From IMG/VR virus record IMGVR_UViG_3300042450_001194, positions 1 through 34,997 of that record: DNA of 34,997 nucleotides; one strand, written 5' to 3'. Every line of letters begins with the position of its first letter. Position 1 is the stretch's first letter. Positions 4,228-33,233 of this stretch are shown here, piece after piece. The notes beneath the pieces were generated by a model. The model worked only from the letters and a program-made list of their open reading frames with translations. It had not been told where the DNA came from and did not search any database. Source of the DNA: a virus. The position numbers and the translations under genes are program-made.

Positions 4228-5583
4228 ATGAAGGCGCCATTGGTGTCGAAGAGCCGCGCGGCGGCGGAGCTGCGCGAGAAGGCTCACAAGATCCGTCACG
4301 ATCTGGTCGACGCGACCAATTCGTACACGGCTGAGGAAGTGGAAAAGATGACGGGCGATATTCGCTCGTTGGAGATGCGAGCGCAGGCGGCCGCGGAGTT
4401 CACGCCCGATGCCGAAGTCGCGCGTCAGGGCGGCGACGAAGGGCTGGTGCGCGTCGATGCCGGCGGGGATCGCACGGAGTTCGCCAATATGGGCGACGCC
4501 ATGCAGGAGGTCCGCTCAACGATCGTCAACGCCTTTTCCAACGTGGGCAGCTACATCCGGGCGGCGACGCGCGGGCCGGCTAACGCGGCGGAAGCGGCGG
4601 CGCTGAAGCAGGTCGACCAGTTCACGCGCACGATCACGGGCAGCACGAACGGCGGCGAGTACCTGCTCCCGTTGACGCAGGTGCCTGAGATCTTTTCGGT
4701 GAGCAACCAGCAGCCGGGTCTGTTCCAGTACGCGCGGCGCTACAACGTGCCGGGCCGTTCGCTCCGCATCCCGTACCTGGTGCAGGACGAAGGCACGACG
4801 ACGCTGAACCGTCCGATGGCAGGTAAGATCGCCAACGTGTCGATCGTCGGCGAAGGCGCCACGAAGCCGGTGCGCGAGCCGACTTTTGGCCAGCGCCTGC
4901 TGACGATGTACAAGTACGCGGCGATCACGCAGTTCGGCGACGAATTGCTCGGCGACGACTTCACCGGCGAGCTGCCGAGCGAAGTCACGACCGCGGTCGG
5001 CGGTCAGATCGTGAACAAGATTAACGAAGACATCACGATCGACGGGTCGGGCTCGAGCGAGCCGCTCGGCGCGCTGAACAACGCGAACACGTCACTCATC
5101 GCGGTCAATCGCGCGACGTCGACGACGTTCACGGCGGCGGACGCGTTCAACATGTACGAGAAGCACACGCACGGGCCGAACTCGGCGTGGATGATCTCGC
5201 GGCGCGTGCTGAACAAGCTGTTCGCGCTCCAGACGACCAACAACACGATGGTCACCTGGCTCGCAAACTTGCGCGACAAGCCGCAGATGCTGCTGTTGGG
5301 TCTGCCGGTGATCGTGACGGACCTGCTCCCGACGCTCGGCACCAAGGGCGACGTGGCGCTGGTGAACGGCGATTTCTACGCGATGGGCTTGCGCCAGGCG
5401 TTGACCGTCGAAAGCTCGATCCACGTCGCGTTCATTCAGGACGTGACGACGTACCGGTTCGTGGCGCGCGGCGGCGGTATTCCGCTCCCGACGTCCACGT
5501 ACGCGTACAAGGTCGACAGCAGCGGCAACAAGGTGGACGCGCACTCGCCGTTCGTCGTGCTCGATGTCCCTGCGTCGTCCTGA
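4228..5583 (+). CDS. HK97-like major capsid protein
   Basis: This is the main shell protein, 451 residues, usual size for an HK97 gp5-type precursor. Residues 1-75 are charged and helical with coiled-coil character, resembling the delta/scaffold arm. From about residue 140 the fold signature appears: NGGEYLLPLTQVPEIFS, then the P-domain segment VPGRSLRIPYL, then IVGEGATKP and a helix with ITQFGDELLGDD. A DGSGSSEPLGAL segment and the C-terminal VNGDFYAMGLRQALTVESS strand complete the pattern. The exact protease cut site is not identifiable; somewhere between residues 100 and 140 is an inference. The next gene starts inside its last 20 bases in another frame, so the two are probably translationally coupled. 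Confidence 0.93.
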   Translation: MKAPLVSKSRAAAELREKAHKIRHDLVDATNSYTAEEVEKMTGDIRSLEMRAQAAAEFTPDAEVARQGGDEGLVRVDAGGDRTEFANMGDAMQEVRSTIVNAFSNVGSYIRAATRGPANAAEAAALKQVDQFTRTITGSTNGGEYLLPLTQVPEIFSVSNQQPGLFQYARRYNVPGRSLRIPYLVQDEGTTTLNRPMAGKIANVSIVGEGATKPVREPTFGQRLLTMYKYAAITQFGDELLGDDFTGELPSEVTTAVGGQIVNKINEDITIDGSGSSEPLGALNNANTSLIAVNRATSTTFTAADAFNMYEKHTHGPNSAWMISRRVLNKLFALQTTNNTMVTWLANLRDKPQMLLLGLPVIVTDLLPTLGTKGDVALVNGDFYAMGLRQALTVESSIHVAFIQDVTTYRFVARGGGIPLPTSTYAYKVDSSGNKVDAHSPFVVLDVPASS

Positions 5584-25933: not shown

Positions 25934-25962
25934 TTGACAGCGTGCGCGCGCGAGCGCATATT
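25934..25962 (+). promoter_or_regulatory. Sigma-70-type promoter for a short RNA
   Basis: A perfect -35 TTGACA (25934-25939) is followed after exactly 17 bases by CATATT (25957-25962), matching the consensus -10 at four of six positions. Transcription would start near 25969. The hexamer TAGCCG (25928-25933), overlapping the holin stop, touches the -35. Confidence 0.7.
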
Positions 25963-25968
25963 CGGGGG

Positions 25969-26072
25969 GTCGGTGACGGCGCGCAAGCGGCCGGCTGACC
26001 TCAGTCCGCGTAAGGCTAGTGGCGTCGAAAGGCGGCCATGCAAGAGACCCCAGTCTTAGCTGGGGTCTTTTT
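25969..26072 (+). ncRNA. Putative small RNA, about 104 nt
   Basis: A dedicated promoter and a strong intrinsic terminator frame this short segment with no conserved reading frame. A 5' stem (25968-25974 with 25994-26000, including two G-U pairs) starts at the predicted transcription start, and GGCCG at 25989-25993 could alternatively pair with CGGCC at 26033-26037. A GTG at 25974 opens a 28-codon basic frame ending inside the terminator loop, so a micro-peptide is possible, but its leader would be only a few bases. No resemblance to a known RNA family was recognised. It might regulate lysis or early genes; no target could be deduced. Confidence 0.55.
26045..26072 (+). terminator. Intrinsic terminator closing the late block and the small RNA
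   Basis: Nine perfect pairs, AGACCCCAG (26045-26053) with CTGGGGTCT (26060-26068), surround loop TCTTAG, and five T residues (26068-26072) complete it. The A-rich 5' flank can extend the stem into the T-run, so it could also work weakly on the other strand. Confidence 0.93.
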
Positions 26073-26503
26073 GTATCTTGCGGGTTCGGCGGGCGGGCGG
26101 TACTGTTGGTACGACCCGCCACGGCTAAGACACCGCGGCGGGTGATCGGGCCTGATGTGGCTCTCCCGATTGCGCTATGCGGACCATGCGCGCACCAATC
26201 CTGAGCGATCCAGACGAGCGTGTTCCACCAATCCGGGCAACGTCGAGCCTACGCCCCGGCCGGTCACCAACGCTCGAGCTGCTGCACGACGGCCGCACAT
26301 CCTGGCCGATAGGTACCCTCCGAGGGCGCGACTCGTTTAGCGGGCGAGCGCGGGCAGGAGCGCCAACGATGGCCAGTCCGTTTGCCGGCTCTCTGTGAGG
26401 GTCGACGGGTCCGAGCGATCCGATTGCACGGTCACCTTACAGCGGTGGTGACCGGGTATGGCTCCGCTGTGTTTAAAAAAAAAAGAGAAAGCGAAAGCGA
26501 CTC
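26073..26503. other. 430-base non-coding, hairpin-rich region (possible origin or structured RNA)
   Basis: No convincing gene is present. Inverted repeats include CCCGCC with GGCGGG around 26115-26143, ATCGGG with CCCGAT around 26145-26170, and CGGTCACC (26429-26436) with GGTGACCG (26447-26454). The nonamer GAGCGATCC occurs twice, near 26203 and 26414. An A10 run (26475-26484) lies 20 bases ahead of the -35 of the next promoter and may act as an UP-like element. The region separates late and early blocks, where an origin of replication or a structured RNA would be plausible; neither can be shown. Confidence 0.5.
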
Positions 26504-26532
26504 TTGACAGTTCGTGCGTCTGTCCGTATTGT
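26504..26532 (+). promoter_or_regulatory. Early promoter, copy 1 of TAGCCG-leader family
   Basis: TTGACA (26504-26509), a 17-base spacer and TATTGT (26527-26532) form a good sigma-70-like promoter with an A-tract just upstream. The predicted start is near 26539, exactly where a leader hairpin begins. Confidence 0.8.
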
Positions 26533-26538
26533 TGTGGG

Positions 26539-26560
26539 GTGAGCGCTAGCCGGCGCGCAC
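26539..26560 (+). promoter_or_regulatory. Leader hairpin 1, loop TAGCCG
   Basis: Arms GTGAGCGC (26539-26546) and GCGCGCAC (26553-26560) pair at seven of eight positions around loop TAGCCG (26547-26552). The hairpin begins 35 bases after the first base of TTGACA and ends 25 bases before the ATG at 26585. Confidence 0.65.
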
Positions 26561-26584
26561 GAAACCCCGGACGGAGGTATGACG

Positions 26585-26785
26585 ATGAGCTGTTTCTCAC
26601 GCACGACGGTTAAGGCGCTCGCACGCAAGGGCGTTACGGTGGTTGGTTCGCAGTGGTTGCCGGACATGTCGTCCGACATGCCGATGGCCTGCGGAGAGCC
26701 GGGCTACGTGGTCGACGATAACGGGACGGGTCGCGTCCTGACGTTTGCCGGCGTGCTGGCGATGGCCTCCAAGACGGAGGCCTAA
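26585..26785 (+). CDS. First early gene, small protein of unknown function
   Basis: I do not recognise this 66-residue protein. It begins MSCFSRTTVKALARKGVTVV, has a Met/Asp-rich middle (WLPDMSSDMPMACGEPGYVV) and a hydrophobic end (RVLTFAGVLAMASKTEA). ATG 26585 is chosen because GGAGG (26573-26577) lies seven bases upstream, while the earlier ATG 26579 is only one base from it. It is the first product from the strong promoter at 26504, a position where phages often encode host-takeover proteins; that is inference only. The next gene starts four bases after its stop. Confidence 0.62.
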   Translation: MSCFSRTTVKALARKGVTVVGSQWLPDMSSDMPMACGEPGYVVDDNGTGRVLTFAGVLAMASKTEA

Positions 26786-26788
26786 TCC

Positions 26789-27019
26789 ATGAAGACGCAG
26801 ACTGTTTTTACCGTGTTGTTTTCGTCGATCACCGGTGCCGCAACGGTTCACGATACGTTGTGCACGACGGTTCAGGGCCGACGGTCGCGCGCGCTCCACG
26901 CGGTCAATGTGTCTGGCGTTGATGCCGGCGCGGCGGCGCGGACGTTTTTTGAAGACGAGCAGCTTGCAGAGCGCGGATTCAAGCTGCCGAAGGTATGTCA
27001 ATGCGCGAAGGCATTTTAG
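26789..27019 (+). CDS. Small early protein of unknown function
   Basis: This 76-residue protein begins MKTQTVFTVLFSSITGAATV, with a moderately hydrophobic first segment that could be a signal-like or buried strand, then a basic section (VQGRRSRALHAVNVSG) and a C-terminus holding VCQCAKAF with two cysteines. GGAGG lies about eight bases before ATG 26789, inside the end of the preceding gene, so the pair is probably one transcript. A new promoter of the same leader family starts two bases after its stop. No family recognised. Confidence 0.6.
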   Translation: MKTQTVFTVLFSSITGAATVHDTLCTTVQGRRSRALHAVNVSGVDAGAAARTFFEDEQLAERGFKLPKVCQCAKAF

Positions 27020-27021
27020 TC

Positions 27022-27049
27022 TTGACACGTAGCAAACGCGATGTATTGT
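27022..27049 (+). promoter_or_regulatory. Early promoter, copy 2 of TAGCCG-leader family
   Basis: TTGACA (27022-27027), a 16-base spacer and TATTGT (27044-27049), the same -10 as copy 1. The predicted start near 27056 coincides with the foot of a perfect hairpin. Confidence 0.8.
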
Positions 27050-27054
27050 AGGGC

Positions 27055-27080
27055 TCGAGCGGCATAGCCGTGCCGCTCGA
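27055..27080 (+). promoter_or_regulatory. Leader hairpin 2, loop TAGCCG
   Basis: Ten perfect pairs, TCGAGCGGCA (27055-27064) with TGCCGCTCGA (27071-27080), hold loop TAGCCG (27065-27070). As it sits at the very 5' end of the transcript it could stabilise the mRNA, serve as a protein-binding loop, or as DNA be an operator over the start site. Confidence 0.85.
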
Positions 27081-27105
27081 TTTCACGCGGACCAGAGGGG
27101 AGACA

Positions 27106-27303
27106 ATGGATACGGTAGACAGCCTGGTGCAGATCGTGGCGCGGTATTCGGACGCGCAGCTCGCGGAGGCACGCGACATGATGGCGCGGTGGCACGGCGA
27201 GGCGGATATGCCGGCGTCGCTGATGACGCTCGCGCGGATCATCGAAGAGGAAGCCCAATACCGGAAGGCCGAGGACTCAGCGCTGCGGGAGGGCGGACGA
27301 TGA
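27106..27303 (+). CDS. Small helical acidic protein, unknown
   Basis: This 65-residue protein is helical and acidic: MDTVDSLVQIVARYSDAQLA, then ARDMMARWHGEADM and a C-terminal helix ARIIEEEAQYRKAEDSAL. It starts at ATG 27106 after a strong AGAGGGGAG site and follows leader hairpin 2 by 25 bases. The stop overlaps the next start (ATGA). No family was recognised; it may be a regulatory or adaptor protein of the recombination block that follows, judging only by operon position. Confidence 0.6.
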   Translation: MDTVDSLVQIVARYSDAQLAEARDMMARWHGEADMPASLMTLARIIEEEAQYRKAEDSALREGGR

Positions 27304-27653
27304 CCAGCGACCAAGTGCTCGCGGCCGGTCACGCAACCCGGCATTATTGCGCCAAGATCCGAACTGCGCTGAACAAATTGTTTGCGGAGTCGGAGGCGTG
27401 TTTTCGGGTGCTTCACGAGACTGACGAGGCCGTGAGCGCGCAGCTCGACGCCGTCGGCGATACGGACGCGGTTCGGGCGGCTGACCTACGGGCGGCGCGG
27501 AATCTGCTGACCAAGCTGTCGGCCAGCCTTAACCACGTCCGGCAGGATCTGCATATCGCGCTAGACGCGACGGACGGGCTCGACCATCGGGCGTCCATCC
27601 TGCTGGCGCTGGATCTGTCGGACACCCTACCGTGGACGGAGGACGCGCGATGA
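27300..27653 (+). CDS. Helical protein of unknown function before ERF
   Basis: This 117-residue protein looks fully helical: MTSDQVLAAGHATRHYCAKI, then LNKLFAESEACFRVLHETDE, a section AADLRAARNLLTKLSASLNH and DLHIALDATDGLDHRASILL. The heptad-like leucines suggest a coiled coil or helical bundle. ATG 27300 and the stop at 27651 both use four-base overlaps with neighbours. Being upstream of the ERF annealing gene in the same operon, it may assist recombination; that is context only. Confidence 0.6.
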   Translation: MTSDQVLAAGHATRHYCAKIRTALNKLFAESEACFRVLHETDEAVSAQLDAVGDTDAVRAADLRAARNLLTKLSASLNHVRQDLHIALDATDGLDHRASILLALDLSDTLPWTEDAR

Positions 27654-28357
27654 AAAGCAGCGAGTCGATTGGGCTGATCGCGCCGGCGATCGTGAAGGCG
27701 GCGGCGGATCTCGGGCCGGTCGTCAAGGACGCGACCAACCCGGCGTTCCGGAACAAGTACGCGACGCTCGACGCGATCATGGAGCAGGTCCGGCCGGTGC
27801 TCGCGGCGCACGGGCTGGCGGTGATGCAGGGCGTGCTCCATCCGGAGACGGACGGCGGGCGGGTGGTCGGGATCGCGGTCGAGACGCGGTTGCTGCATTT
27901 GTCGGGCGAGTGGATGGCGAGTGTTGTCGTTGTCCCGGTGGAGAAGTTGACGGCGCAGGGCGCGGGCTCGGCGATCAGCTACGGCCGGCGCTACGGGCTG
28001 TCGGCGATGCTCGGGCTGACGGCGGAGGACGACGACGGCAACGGCGCGTCGACGTCGAAGCGGGCAGAGCCGGCCGCGGCAAAGGCGCCGCGCGAGCCGG
28101 AGGCGGGCAAGCGGTTGCACGATCGCGTACCGGCGACGCCGGCGGCCGCCATGAGCTTGGCAAAGGCGGCGACGGTTGAGCTCAAGGGCACGAAGCTGGC
28201 CGATATGGACGATGCACGGCTTGCGGCGGTCCGAGCGTGGGCGGTTGAGAAGGCCAACAACTACGTCCTGGCGGCGTGCGATGCGATCGCGGCGGCGCGC
28301 GAGGCGGACGGCGAGGACGACGGCAACGCGTTCGACGACGAGCGGGTGCCGTTTTGA
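27650..28357 (+). CDS. erf: ERF-family single-strand annealing protein
   Basis: This 235-residue protein anneals complementary single strands in phage recombination and concatemer formation. The ERF core is clear: NPAFRNKYATLDAIMEQVRP near residue 30, VLAAHGLAVMQG, and the hallmark GSAISYGRRYGLSAMLGLTA near 107 followed by EDDDGNGA. A basic, Ala-rich linker and a helical C-terminal region follow. The last residues, DERVPF, resemble the acidic-aromatic tip of SSB-like proteins that recruits partners. Such phages often pair ERF with an exonuclease; candidates here are the DnaQ/PolB-like exonuclease at 30833 and the VRR nuclease at 32500. Confidence 0.92.
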   Translation: MKSSESIGLIAPAIVKAAADLGPVVKDATNPAFRNKYATLDAIMEQVRPVLAAHGLAVMQGVLHPETDGGRVVGIAVETRLLHLSGEWMASVVVVPVEKLTAQGAGSAISYGRRYGLSAMLGLTAEDDDGNGASTSKRAEPAAAKAPREPEAGKRLHDRVPATPAAAMSLAKAATVELKGTKLADMDDARLAAVRAWAVEKANNYVLAACDAIAAAREADGEDDGNAFDDERVPF

Positions 28358-28539
28358 GCGCCGGGGGCGAGTGGGTCGAGGAGTGGGCCGACGTGGAGTC
28401 GGACGAGCAGGAGGCGCGGGCATTTGCTCGCGCCGTCCAGCGGCACGTCAACGCGCAGGCGTGGGAGGACCGAAACACGGGGATGCAGCTCGAGCCGTTC
28501 CGGTCGGACGAGGACGGGGACGAGGAGGACGACGCGTGA
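28354..28539 (+). CDS. Small acidic protein of unknown function
   Basis: This 61-residue protein begins at a TTG (28354) overlapping the ERF stop and ends in a very acidic tail (FRSDEDGDEEDDA). The middle is helical (SDEQEARAFARAVQRHVNAQ). No better start is available downstream without losing most of the frame. Acidic tails of this kind occur in DNA mimics and in proteins that bind single-strand-binding protein, but nothing further supports such a role here. Confidence 0.5.
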   Translation: MSAGGEWVEEWADVESDEQEARAFARAVQRHVNAQAWEDRNTGMQLEPFRSDEDGDEEDDA

Positions 28540-28787
28540 AAAACAGACTGACGGATCTCAACGATATTCTATTTGCCCAGCTCGAGCGGCTCACGGACGA
28601 GTCGCTTACTGGCGACGAGCTGGCGCAGGAGATCAGCAGATCGACGTCGGTGGTACAGGTGGCAGACCGGATCGTCGAGACGGCGGCGTTGCAGTTGCAG
28701 GGCGCTAAGCTGATCGCGGAGCATGGCGGCAAAACGCGGGTCGCACTCCCGTCGACGATGGCGCTATCGGCTGGGGCTGCGGCATGA
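28536..28787 (+). CDS. Conserved small phage protein
   Basis: This 83-residue protein begins MKNRLTDLNDILFAQLERLT, followed by DESLTGDELAQEISRSTSVV, then a helix ADRIVETAALQLQGAKLIAE. The opening is one I recall from small proteins in many phages of Proteobacteria, often next to HNH genes. Function is not known to me. GTG 28536 overlaps the previous stop, and the HNH-like gene starts inside its stop (ATGA). Confidence 0.65.
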   Translation: MKNRLTDLNDILFAQLERLTDESLTGDELAQEISRSTSVVQVADRIVETAALQLQGAKLIAEHGGKTRVALPSTMALSAGAAA

Positions 28788-29638
28788 AGGGCGCGCGGAT
28801 CACGTACAGCGAGGCCGAGCTCGCGTTTATATGGGCGCGTCGGGATATGCCGCGCGCCGAGATCCGCGCGGCGTTTGTCCTGGCGTTTGGCCGGCCCGAT
28901 GTCCGGGTCGAGCACATTACCGGACTGTGCAAGCGGAAACGGTGGGGGGCGGCGCGCGCGACGTATTCCGCGGCCGACGACGCGTTGCTCGTTGCACGGT
29001 TTGCCGATACGCCAACGGCGAAATTGGCGGCGATGCTTCAACGGCCGGCGGGATCGGTTACGCATCGCGCGCGCCGGCTTGGGTTGACCAAGAGCGCGGC
29101 GTATCTGGCGACACCGGCGAGTGGTCGGATGCAACCCGGGACAACGCTCGGGGCGCGCACGTACTTCCCCAAAGGTGGACGGCCGGCGAACAAGGGGCGG
29201 ACGTATCCGAAGGGATGGGCGCCGGGACGGATGGCCGACACGCAGTTCACGGCTGGACAAGGCGGCTGGAATCACAAGCCGGTTGGGTTTGAGCGGGTCG
29301 CTGGTCAGTACACGTTTACGAAGGTGAGCGACGTCCGGAACGTGCCGTGGACCGTCAACTGGAAACTGACGCACGTCCTGAACTGGGAAGCGTTGCACGG
29401 TCCGGTGCCAGACGGTCAGTGTCTCAAGAGTCGAGACGGAAACCGGCTCAATACAGATCCGACGAACTGGCAACTGATTCCGCGCGCTCTCCTTCCACGA
29501 TTGAACGGGGGCCGCGGGAAGCGGCTCGGGTATGACGTCGCGCCGGCGGAACTCCGGCCAATTATTTTGGCGGTCGCGCAGATTTCGCACGCAATCAAGA
29601 ACCCAGGCAAACGAGAGACACAAGGACAGGGCGCATGA
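28784..29638 (+). CDS. HNH-like protein with N-terminal helix-turn-helix repeats
   Basis: This 284-residue protein has two helical DNA-binding-like repeats at the start: ITYSEAELAFIWARRDMPRA with RVEHITGLCKRKRW, and TYSAADDALLVARFADTPTA with SVTHRARRLGL, each like a SANT/Myb or HTH unit. A Gly/Lys-rich loop (GGRPANKGRTYPKGWAPGR) follows, then a finger-like HNH_3-type segment near residue 195-230: LTHVLNWEALHGPVPDGQCL then SRDGNRLNTDPTNWQLIPRA. The canonical second His before DGN is absent (SRDGN), while Asn is kept, so it may be a weak endonuclease or only a DNA-binding protein. It may instead be a homing-type element. Confidence 0.75.
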   Translation: MKGARITYSEAELAFIWARRDMPRAEIRAAFVLAFGRPDVRVEHITGLCKRKRWGAARATYSAADDALLVARFADTPTAKLAAMLQRPAGSVTHRARRLGLTKSAAYLATPASGRMQPGTTLGARTYFPKGGRPANKGRTYPKGWAPGRMADTQFTAGQGGWNHKPVGFERVAGQYTFTKVSDVRNVPWTVNWKLTHVLNWEALHGPVPDGQCLKSRDGNRLNTDPTNWQLIPRALLPRLNGGRGKRLGYDVAPAELRPIILAVAQISHAIKNPGKRETQGQGA

Positions 29639-29763
29639 CGTGGCTGAATTGGGTGTTCTGGGGGCTAGTGCTGGTCGCGCTGATCGTGCTGGCGTGGTGT
29701 CGGCGGACCGAAGAGCGCGCGCTTGCATTGGGTCGGGAAACGGACAAGGAGATGGGGCGATGA
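29635..29763 (+). CDS. Small membrane protein, 42 residues
   Basis: A short frame fits between neighbours with four-base overlaps at both ends: ATG 29635 within the stop of the HNH-like gene, and stop TGA 29761-29763 within the next start. It encodes an N-terminal hydrophobic helix, WVFWGLVLVALIVLAW, followed by a charged tail (CRRTEERALALGRETDKEMG), typical of a single-pass membrane protein with cytoplasmic tail. The perfect overlap geometry argues it is real. Function unknown. Confidence 0.68.
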   Translation: MTWLNWVFWGLVLVALIVLAWCRRTEERALALGRETDKEMGR

Positions 29764-30002
29764 CGAGCGAACGGACGGTTCACAAGATGCGGCAGGAAAT
29801 CATCGAGGCCGCGGCGGCGCTGCACCGGCACGCCAAAGACGAGGGCGCGCTCCGGATTCTGGCGTCGCGCAATGTCCGGGACGCCGAGATCTACAAGCCG
29901 CGGATAAAGACGGCCGCGGCGTACGCGACGGAGACGGAGGCGGTCATCCTTAAGATCTTTAACGCGGCGGTCCGCCGCATGAAGGCGGAGATGGGCGAAT
30001 GA
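29760..30002 (+). CDS. Small helical basic protein, unknown
   Basis: This 80-residue protein is helical and charged: MTSERTVHKMRQEIIEAAAA, then LHRHAKDEGALRILASRNVR and a second helix TETEAVILKIFNAAVRRMKA. It could be a small DNA- or RNA-binding protein, but no motif is distinctive. It starts at ATG 29760 and its stop overlaps the winged-helix gene (ATGA), so it is part of the same operon. Confidence 0.6.
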   Translation: MTSERTVHKMRQEIIEAAAALHRHAKDEGALRILASRNVRDAEIYKPRIKTAAAYATETEAVILKIFNAAVRRMKAEMGE

Positions 30003-30640
30003 CCGACCAAGACTACGCGACGTATCGCGACCGCCGGGTCATTACGCTGGTCCACAACGAGCAGTATCTAATCCGGCGGGTCACCGGCGGCGAAGTGCTG
30101 GCCAGCTGGGACGCGGTCGATAAGCAGTGGCGCCAAATTGCAGCCGGGCGCAATACTCCGCGTGGGACTGTCATCGAGGCGGGCACGGTCGCGGCCGTCG
30201 CAACGGCGCGCAGTCCTGGCATGAAGGGGTCGCGGAGCCAGTGGACGCCGATCGACCAATGCCGTCACGATCCGGCGCCGGCCAAGAAGAAGGAGACGAT
30301 CGGGGGGGCGATTCTCGCCATGATACACCAGCACGGGCCGCTGACGACGGCGAAGCTGTCAGAGCTGCTGCCGCACATCCCGCCCAAAAGCCTACGGACG
30401 GCGTGCGGGGATCTCGCGAATACCTTGAAGCTGGGCCGATCGTATGTCATGGTCGGAGAACGGCAAATTACGGCGTATACCGTGGGCGTGGTGACGCACG
30501 AGCCGCGCAAAAAGACGGTCAAGCCACATCGAGCGGATCACGTAAAGGCCGAGCCGTGGATACATCCGATTCGGAGGCGTGCGCTCGGGTTGCCGGTGGC
30601 GCAATCGCCCTTGACAGTTAATCCGGATGACGTAGTTTAA
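29999..30640 (+). CDS. Winged-helix DNA-binding protein
   Basis: This 213-residue protein has an N-terminal beta-rich region (RRVITLVHNEQYLIRRVTGG; EVLASWDAVDKQWRQIAAG) and, at about 98-165, a winged helix: TIGGAILAMIHQHGPLTTAK, LSELLPHIPPKSLRTACGDL, then a wing strand with GRSYVMVGERQITAYTVG. The C-terminus is basic (RKKTVKPHRADHVKAE). It may be an early transcription regulator or replication-initiation-like protein. The -35 of the next promoter lies inside the last codons of this gene. Confidence 0.65.
   Translation: MTDQDYATYRDRRVITLVHNEQYLIRRVTGGEVLASWDAVDKQWRQIAAGRNTPRGTVIEAGTVAAVATARSPGMKGSRSQWTPIDQCRHDPAPAKKKETIGGAILAMIHQHGPLTTAKLSELLPHIPPKSLRTACGDLANTLKLGRSYVMVGERQITAYTVGVVTHEPRKKTVKPHRADHVKAEPWIHPIRRRALGLPVAQSPLTVNPDDVV
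30611..30638 (+). promoter_or_regulatory. Early promoter, copy 3 of TAGCCG-leader family (weaker -10)
   Basis: TTGACA (30611-30616) followed after 16 bases by TAGTTT (30633-30638), a weak -10, all within the end of the winged-helix gene. Geometry relative to the following TAGCCG hairpin and start codon equals that of the other two copies, which supports it despite the -10. Confidence 0.58.
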
Positions 30641-30643
30641 AGG

Positions 30644-30665
30644 GGCAGCCGTAGCCGCGGCTGCC
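30644..30665 (+). promoter_or_regulatory. Leader hairpin 3, loop TAGCCG (terminator-like)
   Basis: Eight perfect pairs, GGCAGCCG (30644-30651) with CGGCTGCC (30658-30665), hold loop TAGCCG (30652-30657). TTTT follows at 30666-30669, so it could also end the upstream operon or act as an attenuator. It ends 28 bases before ATG 30693. Confidence 0.8.
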
Positions 30666-30692
30666 TTTTCCCTCGCGGACGGAGTACAGACA

Positions 30693-30833
30693 ATGGTCGA
30701 AATACTGAACGACAGCGCGGTTCGGGCGGTCCTGGCGGACGCGGTGACGCAGACGGTGGTCGTGATGTGGGCGGGATGCTGCATCTATATGATGGCGTCG
30801 GCAGTCCGGGCGTCGATTGGGCGGGCGCGATAA
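30693..30833 (+). CDS. Small membrane protein, 46 residues
   Basis: This short frame begins at ATG 30693 after a GGAG site and ends in a TAATG overlap with the exonuclease gene. It starts MVEILNDSAVRAVLADAVTQ, then has a hydrophobic segment TVVVMWAGCCIYMMASAV and a basic end (RASIGRAR), suggesting one membrane span. It is the first gene after leader hairpin 3. Function unknown; accessory lysis, superinfection exclusion or host interaction are open possibilities. Confidence 0.62.
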   Translation: MVEILNDSAVRAVLADAVTQTVVVMWAGCCIYMMASAVRASIGRAR

Positions 30834-31534: not shown

Positions 31535-31776
31535 CACATGAGCCAGATTTGAGTATTGCGGAAGTCGCCGCGCTGGTGGGCGTCACGCGGGCGCGGGTGT
31601 ACCAGCGCGTCAATGGCGAAACGGGCGCCGGCGAATGGGCGCGCCGTGTCGGCTGCTTGCCGTCGCACAAGCGGGTAATAACGCCTGGCGGCCGGATGGT
31701 CACGCGGGTTCCGCTGAGTGCGGCCATTGAGTGGCGCGATCGGCGGAAGGCCGCCGCAATGGAGGGGCAGCCATGA
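31531..31776 (+). CDS. Small helix-turn-helix protein, first of two paralogues
   Basis: This 81-residue protein has an HTH near the start: LSIAEVAALVGVTRARVYQR, then VNGETGAGEWARR and a basic middle (CLPSHKRVITPGGRMVTRVP), ending LSAAIEWRDRRKAA. It has the layout of a DNA-binding adaptor resembling MerR/excisionase-type proteins. A second protein of the same type is encoded at 32889. GTG 31531 overlaps the exonuclease stop by four bases. It might be a regulator or, as in other phages, a small DNA-recognition factor; not decidable. Confidence 0.7.
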   Translation: MTHEPDLSIAEVAALVGVTRARVYQRVNGETGAGEWARRVGCLPSHKRVITPGGRMVTRVPLSAAIEWRDRRKAAAMEGQP

Positions 31777-32503: not shown

Positions 32504-32892
32504 CGGATAGCGGGACGGTGCGGCGAAAGCCGCGGCATTTGGAAGCGATTGAGCAGCGGCTGTTTGTCCAGCGGTACCGGCTCGATCCGCGGACGCGCGA
32601 CTTGCCGGCGTGCGCGATCCCAAACGGGGGGCGGCGCGGCGCGCGCGAAGCCGCCATGCTTAAGGCGGAAGGCGTCACAGCCGGGGCGCCGGACTGGGTG
32701 TTGTTTGTGCCGACGAGCGGGTGGGCGGGGCTGGCGCTCGAGTTTAAGTCGCCGACGGGGAAAGGGCGGGTCACGAACACGCAAGCCGATTTCCACGAAG
32801 CGCTGCGCCGACAGGGGTGGATGGTGGCGGTCGTCACGTCCGCGCTTGCGGCGTGGGACATACTCATTGCGTACCTCGGGGCGCAGATATGA
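32500..32892 (+). CDS. VRR-NUC domain nuclease
   Basis: This 130-residue protein has the PD-(D/E)xK fold of the VRR-NUC type: a basic IPNGGRRGAREAAMLKAEGV (about 42-61), then GAPDWVLFVP with catalytic Asp (about 66), the E-x-K in LALEFKSPTGKGRV (about 78-90) and the trailing NTQADFHEALRRQGWMVAVV helix. VRR-NUC proteins of this size in phages are thought to act as structure-specific nucleases, for example Holliday junction resolvases. That fits a role in resolving recombination intermediates ahead of packaging. GTG 32500 and the next ATG at 32889 both use four-base overlaps. Confidence 0.85.
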   Translation: MTDSGTVRRKPRHLEAIEQRLFVQRYRLDPRTRDLPACAIPNGGRRGAREAAMLKAEGVTAGAPDWVLFVPTSGWAGLALEFKSPTGKGRVTNTQADFHEALRRQGWMVAVVTSALAAWDILIAYLGAQI

Positions 32893-33233
32893 GCGCGCTG
32901 CCAGAGATGTCGGTCGCGGCGGCGGCGCGGATCTTAGGTGTGTCGCGGCAGCGGGTGTACCAGCGCATCGCGGTCGCGACTGGAGACGGGGACACGGAGC
33001 ACGGCCGGCCGCTGGAAGCGACAGTGCGCGCGAGCGGTGGGCGTGGGACGCGAGGCGGGCACCAGCTGCGCGTCGAGCTCGATATCGTCCTCGCGTGGCG
33101 TGCGGAGCGGGTCGCGGCGGGATTGCCGGTCGGTCCGATCCCGGCGCAGTACTGGCGGGACGTGGTGCCGCAGCCGCCGGAGATCCCGGCGACGCCAGCA
33201 TTTTCCGGCATCCCGAACCTCAACCCCTTCTAA
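32889..33233 (+). CDS. Small helix-turn-helix protein, second paralogue
   Basis: This 114-residue protein begins MSALPEMSVAAAARILGVSR followed by QRVYQRIAVATG, the same HTH layout as the protein at 31531. A basic, Gly-rich section follows (ASGGRGTRGGHQLRVELDIV), then a helix LAWRAERVAAGLP and a Pro-rich end (PPEIPATPAFSGIPNLNPF). It could be a second regulator or a terminase accessory, being near the packaging genes. ATG 32889 overlaps the nuclease stop. Confidence 0.65.
   Translation: MSALPEMSVAAAARILGVSRQRVYQRIAVATGDGDTEHGRPLEATVRASGGRGTRGGHQLRVELDIVLAWRAERVAAGLPVGPIPAQYWRDVVPQPPEIPATPAFSGIPNLNPF

Follow-up and report, generated by a model that had tools for sequence, protein, structure and literature searches.

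A probable leader RNA hairpin with a clade-specific UAGCCG loop at three promoters in the early region of an uncultured phage

In cluster K mycobacteriophages, a repeated cassette termed SAS/ESAS lies before a subset of non-structural genes and combines a SigA-like promoter, an inverted repeat with a variable spacer and a conserved translation-start sequence, the repeat consensus being specific to the subcluster (PMC3203893, PMC11373665). Phages of one subcluster have the same conserved arms in this repeat, the deviations that occur do not support RNA pairing, and a DNA site was preferred by the authors (PMC3203893, PMC11373665). The put RNA of phage HK022 is about 70 nucleotides (nt) long and consists of two stem-loops and an RNA triplex (PMC9378689). 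Stem-loops at the 5' end stabilise bacterial mRNAs such as ompA and papA, and the RppH enzyme of B. subtilis requires unpaired 5' bases (PMC3997798). Here, a viral sequence of 34,997 bp (IMG/VR record IMGVR_UViG_3300042450_001194, positions 1 to 34,997; the whole stretch is called the window) was analysed for three cassettes, P1, P2 and P3, in which a promoter is followed by a short hairpin and a ribosome-binding site (RBS). Sequence comparison supports the hairpin as an RNA element in the clade of the window, where the loop is fixed as UAGCCG.

The three promoters have the same orientation and all lie inside the replication region. They share one layout, with TTGACA, a spacer of 16-17 bp, a -10 box of the form TAnnnT, a hairpin, a linker, a good RBS and ATG, and the hairpin loop is TAGCCG each time. 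The parts are listed below; all coordinates are given on the window, + strand.

26504-26532, +: P1 promoter (sequence, consensus scan), TTGACA 26504-26509, 17-bp spacer, TATTGT 26527-26532
26539-26560, +: P1 leader hairpin GTGAGCGC-TAGCCG-GCGCGCAC, loop 26547-26552, one A.G mismatch
26573-26587, +: P1 RBS GGAGG 26573-26577 and ATG 26585-26587 (alternative ATG 26579) of a gene for 66 amino acids (aa)
27022-27049, +: P2 promoter (sequence, consensus scan), TTGACA 27022-27027, 16-bp spacer, TATTGT 27044-27049
27056-27079, +: P2 leader hairpin CGAGCGGCA-TAGCCG-TGCCGCTCG, loop 27065-27070
27096-27108, +: P2 RBS AGGGGAG and ATG of the gene for a conserved 65-aa protein
30611-30638, +: P3 promoter (sequence), TTGACA 30611-30616, 16-bp spacer, TAGTTT 30633-30638
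30644-30665, +: P3 leader hairpin GGCAGCCG-TAGCCG-CGGCTGCC, loop 30652-30657, then TTTT
30681-30695, +: P3 RBS GGAG and ATG 30693-30695 of the gene for a 46-aa protein

The initial annotation had placed TTGACA at 26504, 27022 and 30611, with hairpins starting 35, 34 and 33 bases after the first T, and a coordinate check found these values exact; the -10 box 16-17 bases on and the TAGCCG loop are seen in the sequence at all three sites. Its distances from hairpin to start codon (25, 26 and 28) needed adjustment, with 24, 26 and 27 nt measured, and only the middle one stands; for P1, ATG 26585 is better spaced than 26579. The arms do differ completely between the sites as claimed, and pairing is kept, with the correction that P1 pairs at 7 of 8 positions. 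In P1-P3 the stem begins 6-7 nt past the -10 box, the usual place of +1, and the P3 promoter overlaps the end of the gene at 29999-30640. The window contains the pattern TTGACA...TA...TAGCCG 3 times, compared with a mean of 0.02 in shuffles, which never reached 3. TAGCCG hexamers on both strands number 14, and only the copies of P1-P3 lie within stems of at least 7 pairs.

Fold z-scores of the leaders were -1.1 for P1, -3.6 for P2 and -1.9 for P3. By themselves these energies are modest, and it is covariation that provides the strong evidence. Relatives (numbered with L) were retrieved by Erf protein homology alone, and the loop was not used as a criterion. The UAGCCG loop was found at matching promoters of these Erf relatives, at three in L002, two in L003/L004, two in L006/L007 and one in L009. 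A scan for promoter plus loop in all viral contigs gave 18 stretches, and the proper hairpins among them come from these phages and from L017, L022 and L027, the membership of which was confirmed by exonuclease homology.

Thirteen distinct UAGCCG leaders, which represent about seven lineages of related phages, were compared over an 8-bp stem. Stem cells are paired in 92.3% of cases, compared with 64.6% in shuffles, and 26 cells are double-changed, compared with 8.8. Stem covariation is 0.739 vs 0.243, and none of 500 shuffles was as high. The rows of the alignment are kin and the shuffles ignore kinship; the control for kinship is the register slide, and sliding by one base abolishes the stem covariation. 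The loop is UAGCCG in 13 of the 13 leaders. Past the -10 box, the stem begins at 6-10 nt, or about +1 to +4 counted from the predicted starts, and the loop at 14-16 nt. Changes seen in orthologues include C to T opposite G in the second arm (L003 P2 and P3, L002 P3 and L027), and in L003 P2 a C-G pair is replaced by T-A. The arms of L006 and L009 differ yet again with the loop unchanged, and the linkers read CGGACGGAG..., CGGACCAGAGGGGAGACAATG and similar. A covariance-model search of related phages, as had been proposed in the initial annotation, was run on 17 whole records and gave strong matches only at early promoters. Because the stem survives many double and G-U changes, only in the correct register and with the loop fixed, the hairpin of P1-P3 is supported as an RNA element in the window's clade, which upholds for this clade the earlier view of an RNA element and not a DNA operator.

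The wider group was taken as the relatives of the Erf and capsid proteins. In IMG/VR, at least 136 proteins are related to the major capsid protein (4228-5583, +), with about 77-100% identity for the best 80, and the window belongs to a common uncultured phage group. In the phage collection there was no near DNA match to the window, and Erf and portal matches were all below 60% identity. Using a leader-hairpin census scan that gives 0-1 matches per run on block-shuffled sequence, it was found that a hairpin directly after the promoter is a group-wide trait, with other loops outside the window's clade. These loops are CCAGA and CTAGA (CYAGA) in L005/L008, GCCAG in L013, AATGAC in L156/L162 and AACGTT in L151. 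In L011/L012, several leaders have nearly constant arms, TGGTGTCAGC/GCTGGCACCA, around variable six-base loops (AATGCG, GATCCG, and GCCTCT on a slightly shorter stem), and one leader with the loop ACTGAG has different arms that still pair. The rule of an invariant loop with a changing stem, as first described, holds in the window's clade, whereas L011/L012 have the opposite pattern. The L011 copies are placed as follows.

L011, 6415, 6958, 9289 and 9735: leader hairpins
L011, 6018 and 6713: promoterless copies of the hairpin

Promoterless hairpins are present in L010 too, and in both phages a ribosome-binding linker of the same type comes after them; in a promoterless L011 copy, a T-A pair has become G-C. 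From the group-wide hairpins and the promoterless copies before RBS linkers, the ancestral unit seems to be an mRNA hairpin before a strong RBS, in most cases 5'-terminal. Judged from the sequences compared, the fixed UAGCCG loop is a property of the window's clade.

P1-P3 can be read as copies of one cassette, in which a sigma70-type promoter precedes a 5'-terminal stem-loop and an unstructured linker leads on to a strong RBS with ATG. This cassette would drive early (replication-region) genes in this group of uncultured phages. Going by the distance to the -10 box, host polymerase would start near the first stem base (predicted starts 26539, 27056 and 30644), so that a hairpin of about 8-9 bp would form the very beginning of the transcript. 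Its stem would most likely protect the 5' end from 5'-end-dependent decay and hold the RBS clear of upstream structure, and it may have been retained across the group while its sequence drifts because it does both. The group-wide stem with drifting sequence, the promoterless copies before RBSs, and the known 5' stem-loops together with RppH point in this direction. In the window's clade, the hexaloop UAGCCG appears to be subject to additional selection, for which recognition by a trans-acting factor is the most likely cause. The invariance of the loop against the freedom of the arms suggests such a putative reader, which would be a protein of the phage or the host, or less probably an RNA, and which would mark or co-regulate the three early transcripts. 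This interpretation, of a promoter-hairpin-RBS cassette that gives a 5'-terminal mRNA stem-loop and whose loop is additionally read in the clade by a putative trans factor, is put forward tentatively, at a little short of even probability.

Several observations weigh against it. The fold energies of P1 and P3 are only moderate compared with shuffles. The third leader of L009 (P3) has the loop ACAGCCA, though the loop of its P1 is UAGCCG. No relative of the Erf or capsid protein was found in the bacterial genome collection, so no host, and hence no decay enzymes, can be assigned. A clade-specific phage protein was considered as the loop reader and rejected, because none of the window's early proteins is confined to phages with the UAGCCG loop. 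Two structural candidates were also rejected. A pseudoknot between loop and linker was judged by inspection, with CUAGA/UCUAG pairing in L008 and at most CCG/CGG available in the UAGCCG clade. For an attenuator or terminator, four U follow the stem of P3 and none follow those of P1 and P2.

A lineage-specific RNA recognition code is also possible, if on balance doubtful; a trans factor would read UAGCCG at the 5' end of this clade's early transcripts, and sister clades with the same promoter-hairpin-RBS cassette would use other loops or, as in L011, constant arms. If this were true, the signal would have moved in these phages from one part of a single ancestral leader hairpin to another.

The loop could, by a different account, be constant only through recent shared ancestry and recombination, or through stability, with no reader and with the stem alone of importance. 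In L027, positions 881-962 hold a chimeric cassette in which a promoter and hairpin of P3 type are fused to a linker of P2 type, indicating that cassettes recombine, and relatives vary the loop freely, as does P3 of L009. The arms within one genome are nonetheless wholly different under the same loop, which exchange of whole cassettes cannot yield, and L006 and L009 have yet other arms around that loop. Constancy by descent alone would need recombination within the hairpin that replaces the arms and spares the loop, and this explanation is regarded as unlikely.

An RNA hairpin with an invariant loop right after early promoters could also serve as an antitermination or elongation signal. Here the nascent hairpin, alone as in HK022 put or with a protein as in boxB/N and LoaP dfn, would modify RNA polymerase for terminator readthrough in the early operon. 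It is known that put works as nascent RNA near early promoters and that LoaP binds a leader hairpin with a UNCG loop. Terminator-like sites at 20-35 kb on both strands number 11, compared with 8.1 +/- 3.2 in shuffles, and the only strong intrinsic terminator sits upstream of P1. Since none lies downstream of the promoters, little speaks for antitermination. The element is a single short hairpin against the two stems of put, no N- or NusG-like protein was seen among the window early proteins scanned, and the loops of relatives are quite different. On these grounds the parallel with put and boxB drawn in the initial annotation is not supported, and antitermination is considered quite improbable.

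Some features of the wider group would fit a DNA operator, in which a repressor would bind the inverted repeat at the start site and so silence the early promoters. The palindromes cover the predicted start site, and the arms of L011/L012 are nearly constant at several promoters with variable spacers. Two related small helix-turn-helix proteins (PHROG 686; 31549-31776 and 32889-33233, +) are conserved across the group, being present in nearly all relatives examined, and are candidate regulators of the early promoters. The pattern of an operator, with arms conserved within a genome and a free spacer, would be seen in L011/L012 and is not seen in P1-P3, where the arms are wholly different between sites and the spacer is fixed. 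Changes in the window's clade preserve pairing, G-U included, and promoterless copies stand before RBSs. A DNA operator is quite improbable.

The gene order of the window runs from portal and capsid to tail, then to the replication region, with terminase at the end. The replication region encodes an Erf-like annealing protein, an HNH endonuclease, a DNA polymerase exonuclease-like protein and a VRR nuclease. Two further predicted RNAs lie upstream of P1, and copies of the longer one occur in relatives.

25934-26078, +: predicted small RNA gene P0, promoter TTGACA-17-CATATT, strong intrinsic terminator 26042-26071
about 26110-26470, +: conserved structured noncoding RNA of about 350 nt, own promoter TTGCGG 26078-26083, spacer of 17, TACTGT 26101-26106
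L002, 6538-6918: copy of the 350-nt RNA
L004, 6956-7350: copy of the 350-nt RNA
L006, 6950-7345: copy of the 350-nt RNA
L005, 1400-1770: copy of the 350-nt RNA
L008, 6030-6400: copy of the 350-nt RNA
L009, 4590-4990: copy of the 350-nt RNA
L010, 6195-6560: copy of the 350-nt RNA
L013, 6795-7200: copy of the 350-nt RNA

The 350-nt RNA adjoins P1 directly upstream. Across nine phages its consensus fold comprises 54 pairs, and double changes occur in 28 of these. Pairing is retained in 94% of cells vs 80.5% in shuffles, and 65 cells are double-changed vs 18.9; no shuffle out of 500 reached this level, and every register slide removes the signal. Searching Rfam with this RNA gave no match, only sX12 at a chance-level E of 3.6. 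A pattern scan also found it in L168 and L178, which are records of L011 and L012, and in L169, L171, L173 and L175. A promoter with a leader hairpin follows immediately after it again in L168, L169, L171, L178 and L181. Being conserved across the same phage group, this RNA may be more novel than the hairpins.

P0 is flanked by the late operon and the 350-nt RNA; its predicted transcript (25969-26076) carries GGCUA, and AAGGCTAG is conserved in several relatives. That the UAGCC loop kisses a phage small RNA such as this transcript, for joint control of the three genes, is very improbable: GGCUA is present at about 26014 of the window and in L002, L004, L006 and L009, thus in every UAGCCG phage examined, and P0 has a promoter and a strong terminator, but GGCUA is also found in L010, which is without a UAGCC loop, it shows no covariation with the loops in L005, L008 or L013, a match over five bases is weak, and by inspection the 350-nt RNA has no conserved complement of the loop.

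Should the UAGCCG loop be read in trans, as the preferred interpretation of a 5'-terminal stem-loop with a putative reader holds, these phages would provide a compact natural system in which three promoters of one genome combine an identical loop with stems of unrelated sequence, and sister phages would offer the same architecture with other loops. The reader, the 5' protection of early mRNA and shifts of recognition specificity between related phages would then be open to direct experiment.

As to known families, Rfam gave 0 matches in the window above the gathering threshold, and neither the UAGCCG hexamer nor such a leader was found among the papers listed in an open-access literature search, where absence is weak evidence; the remark in the initial annotation that the loop is not a known one agrees with this. 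Like boxB/N and LoaP dfn, in which the loop or tip is bound by a protein, the element is a leader RNA hairpin. The loop of lambda boxB is a pentaloop, and UAGCCG is neither this nor UNCG; no cognate protein was seen among the early proteins scanned, and a host protein may take this part. With HK022 put it shares a nascent RNA structure just downstream of early phage promoters, and it differs in being one hairpin of 22-24 nt from the predicted +1, followed by a short linker and RBS, with no downstream terminators evident. In the 5' stem-loops of ompA and papA the stem lies ahead of the RBS and begins at the 5' end or a few bases from it, as is predicted for P1-P3, but they depend on the stem and not on a fixed loop sequence. 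By its described arrangement, SAS/ESAS is the nearest described analogue of the P1-P3 cassette. The SAS consensus GGGATAGGAGCCC before the start codon is absent from the linkers of the window's clade in a by-eye comparison with the published consensus. The two cassettes have in common a promoter, an inverted repeat, a start-site sequence, an association with non-structural genes and a consensus that differs by lineage; in the window's clade, unlike SAS/ESAS, the arms vary with compensation around a fixed loop and the test for RNA pairing was passed.

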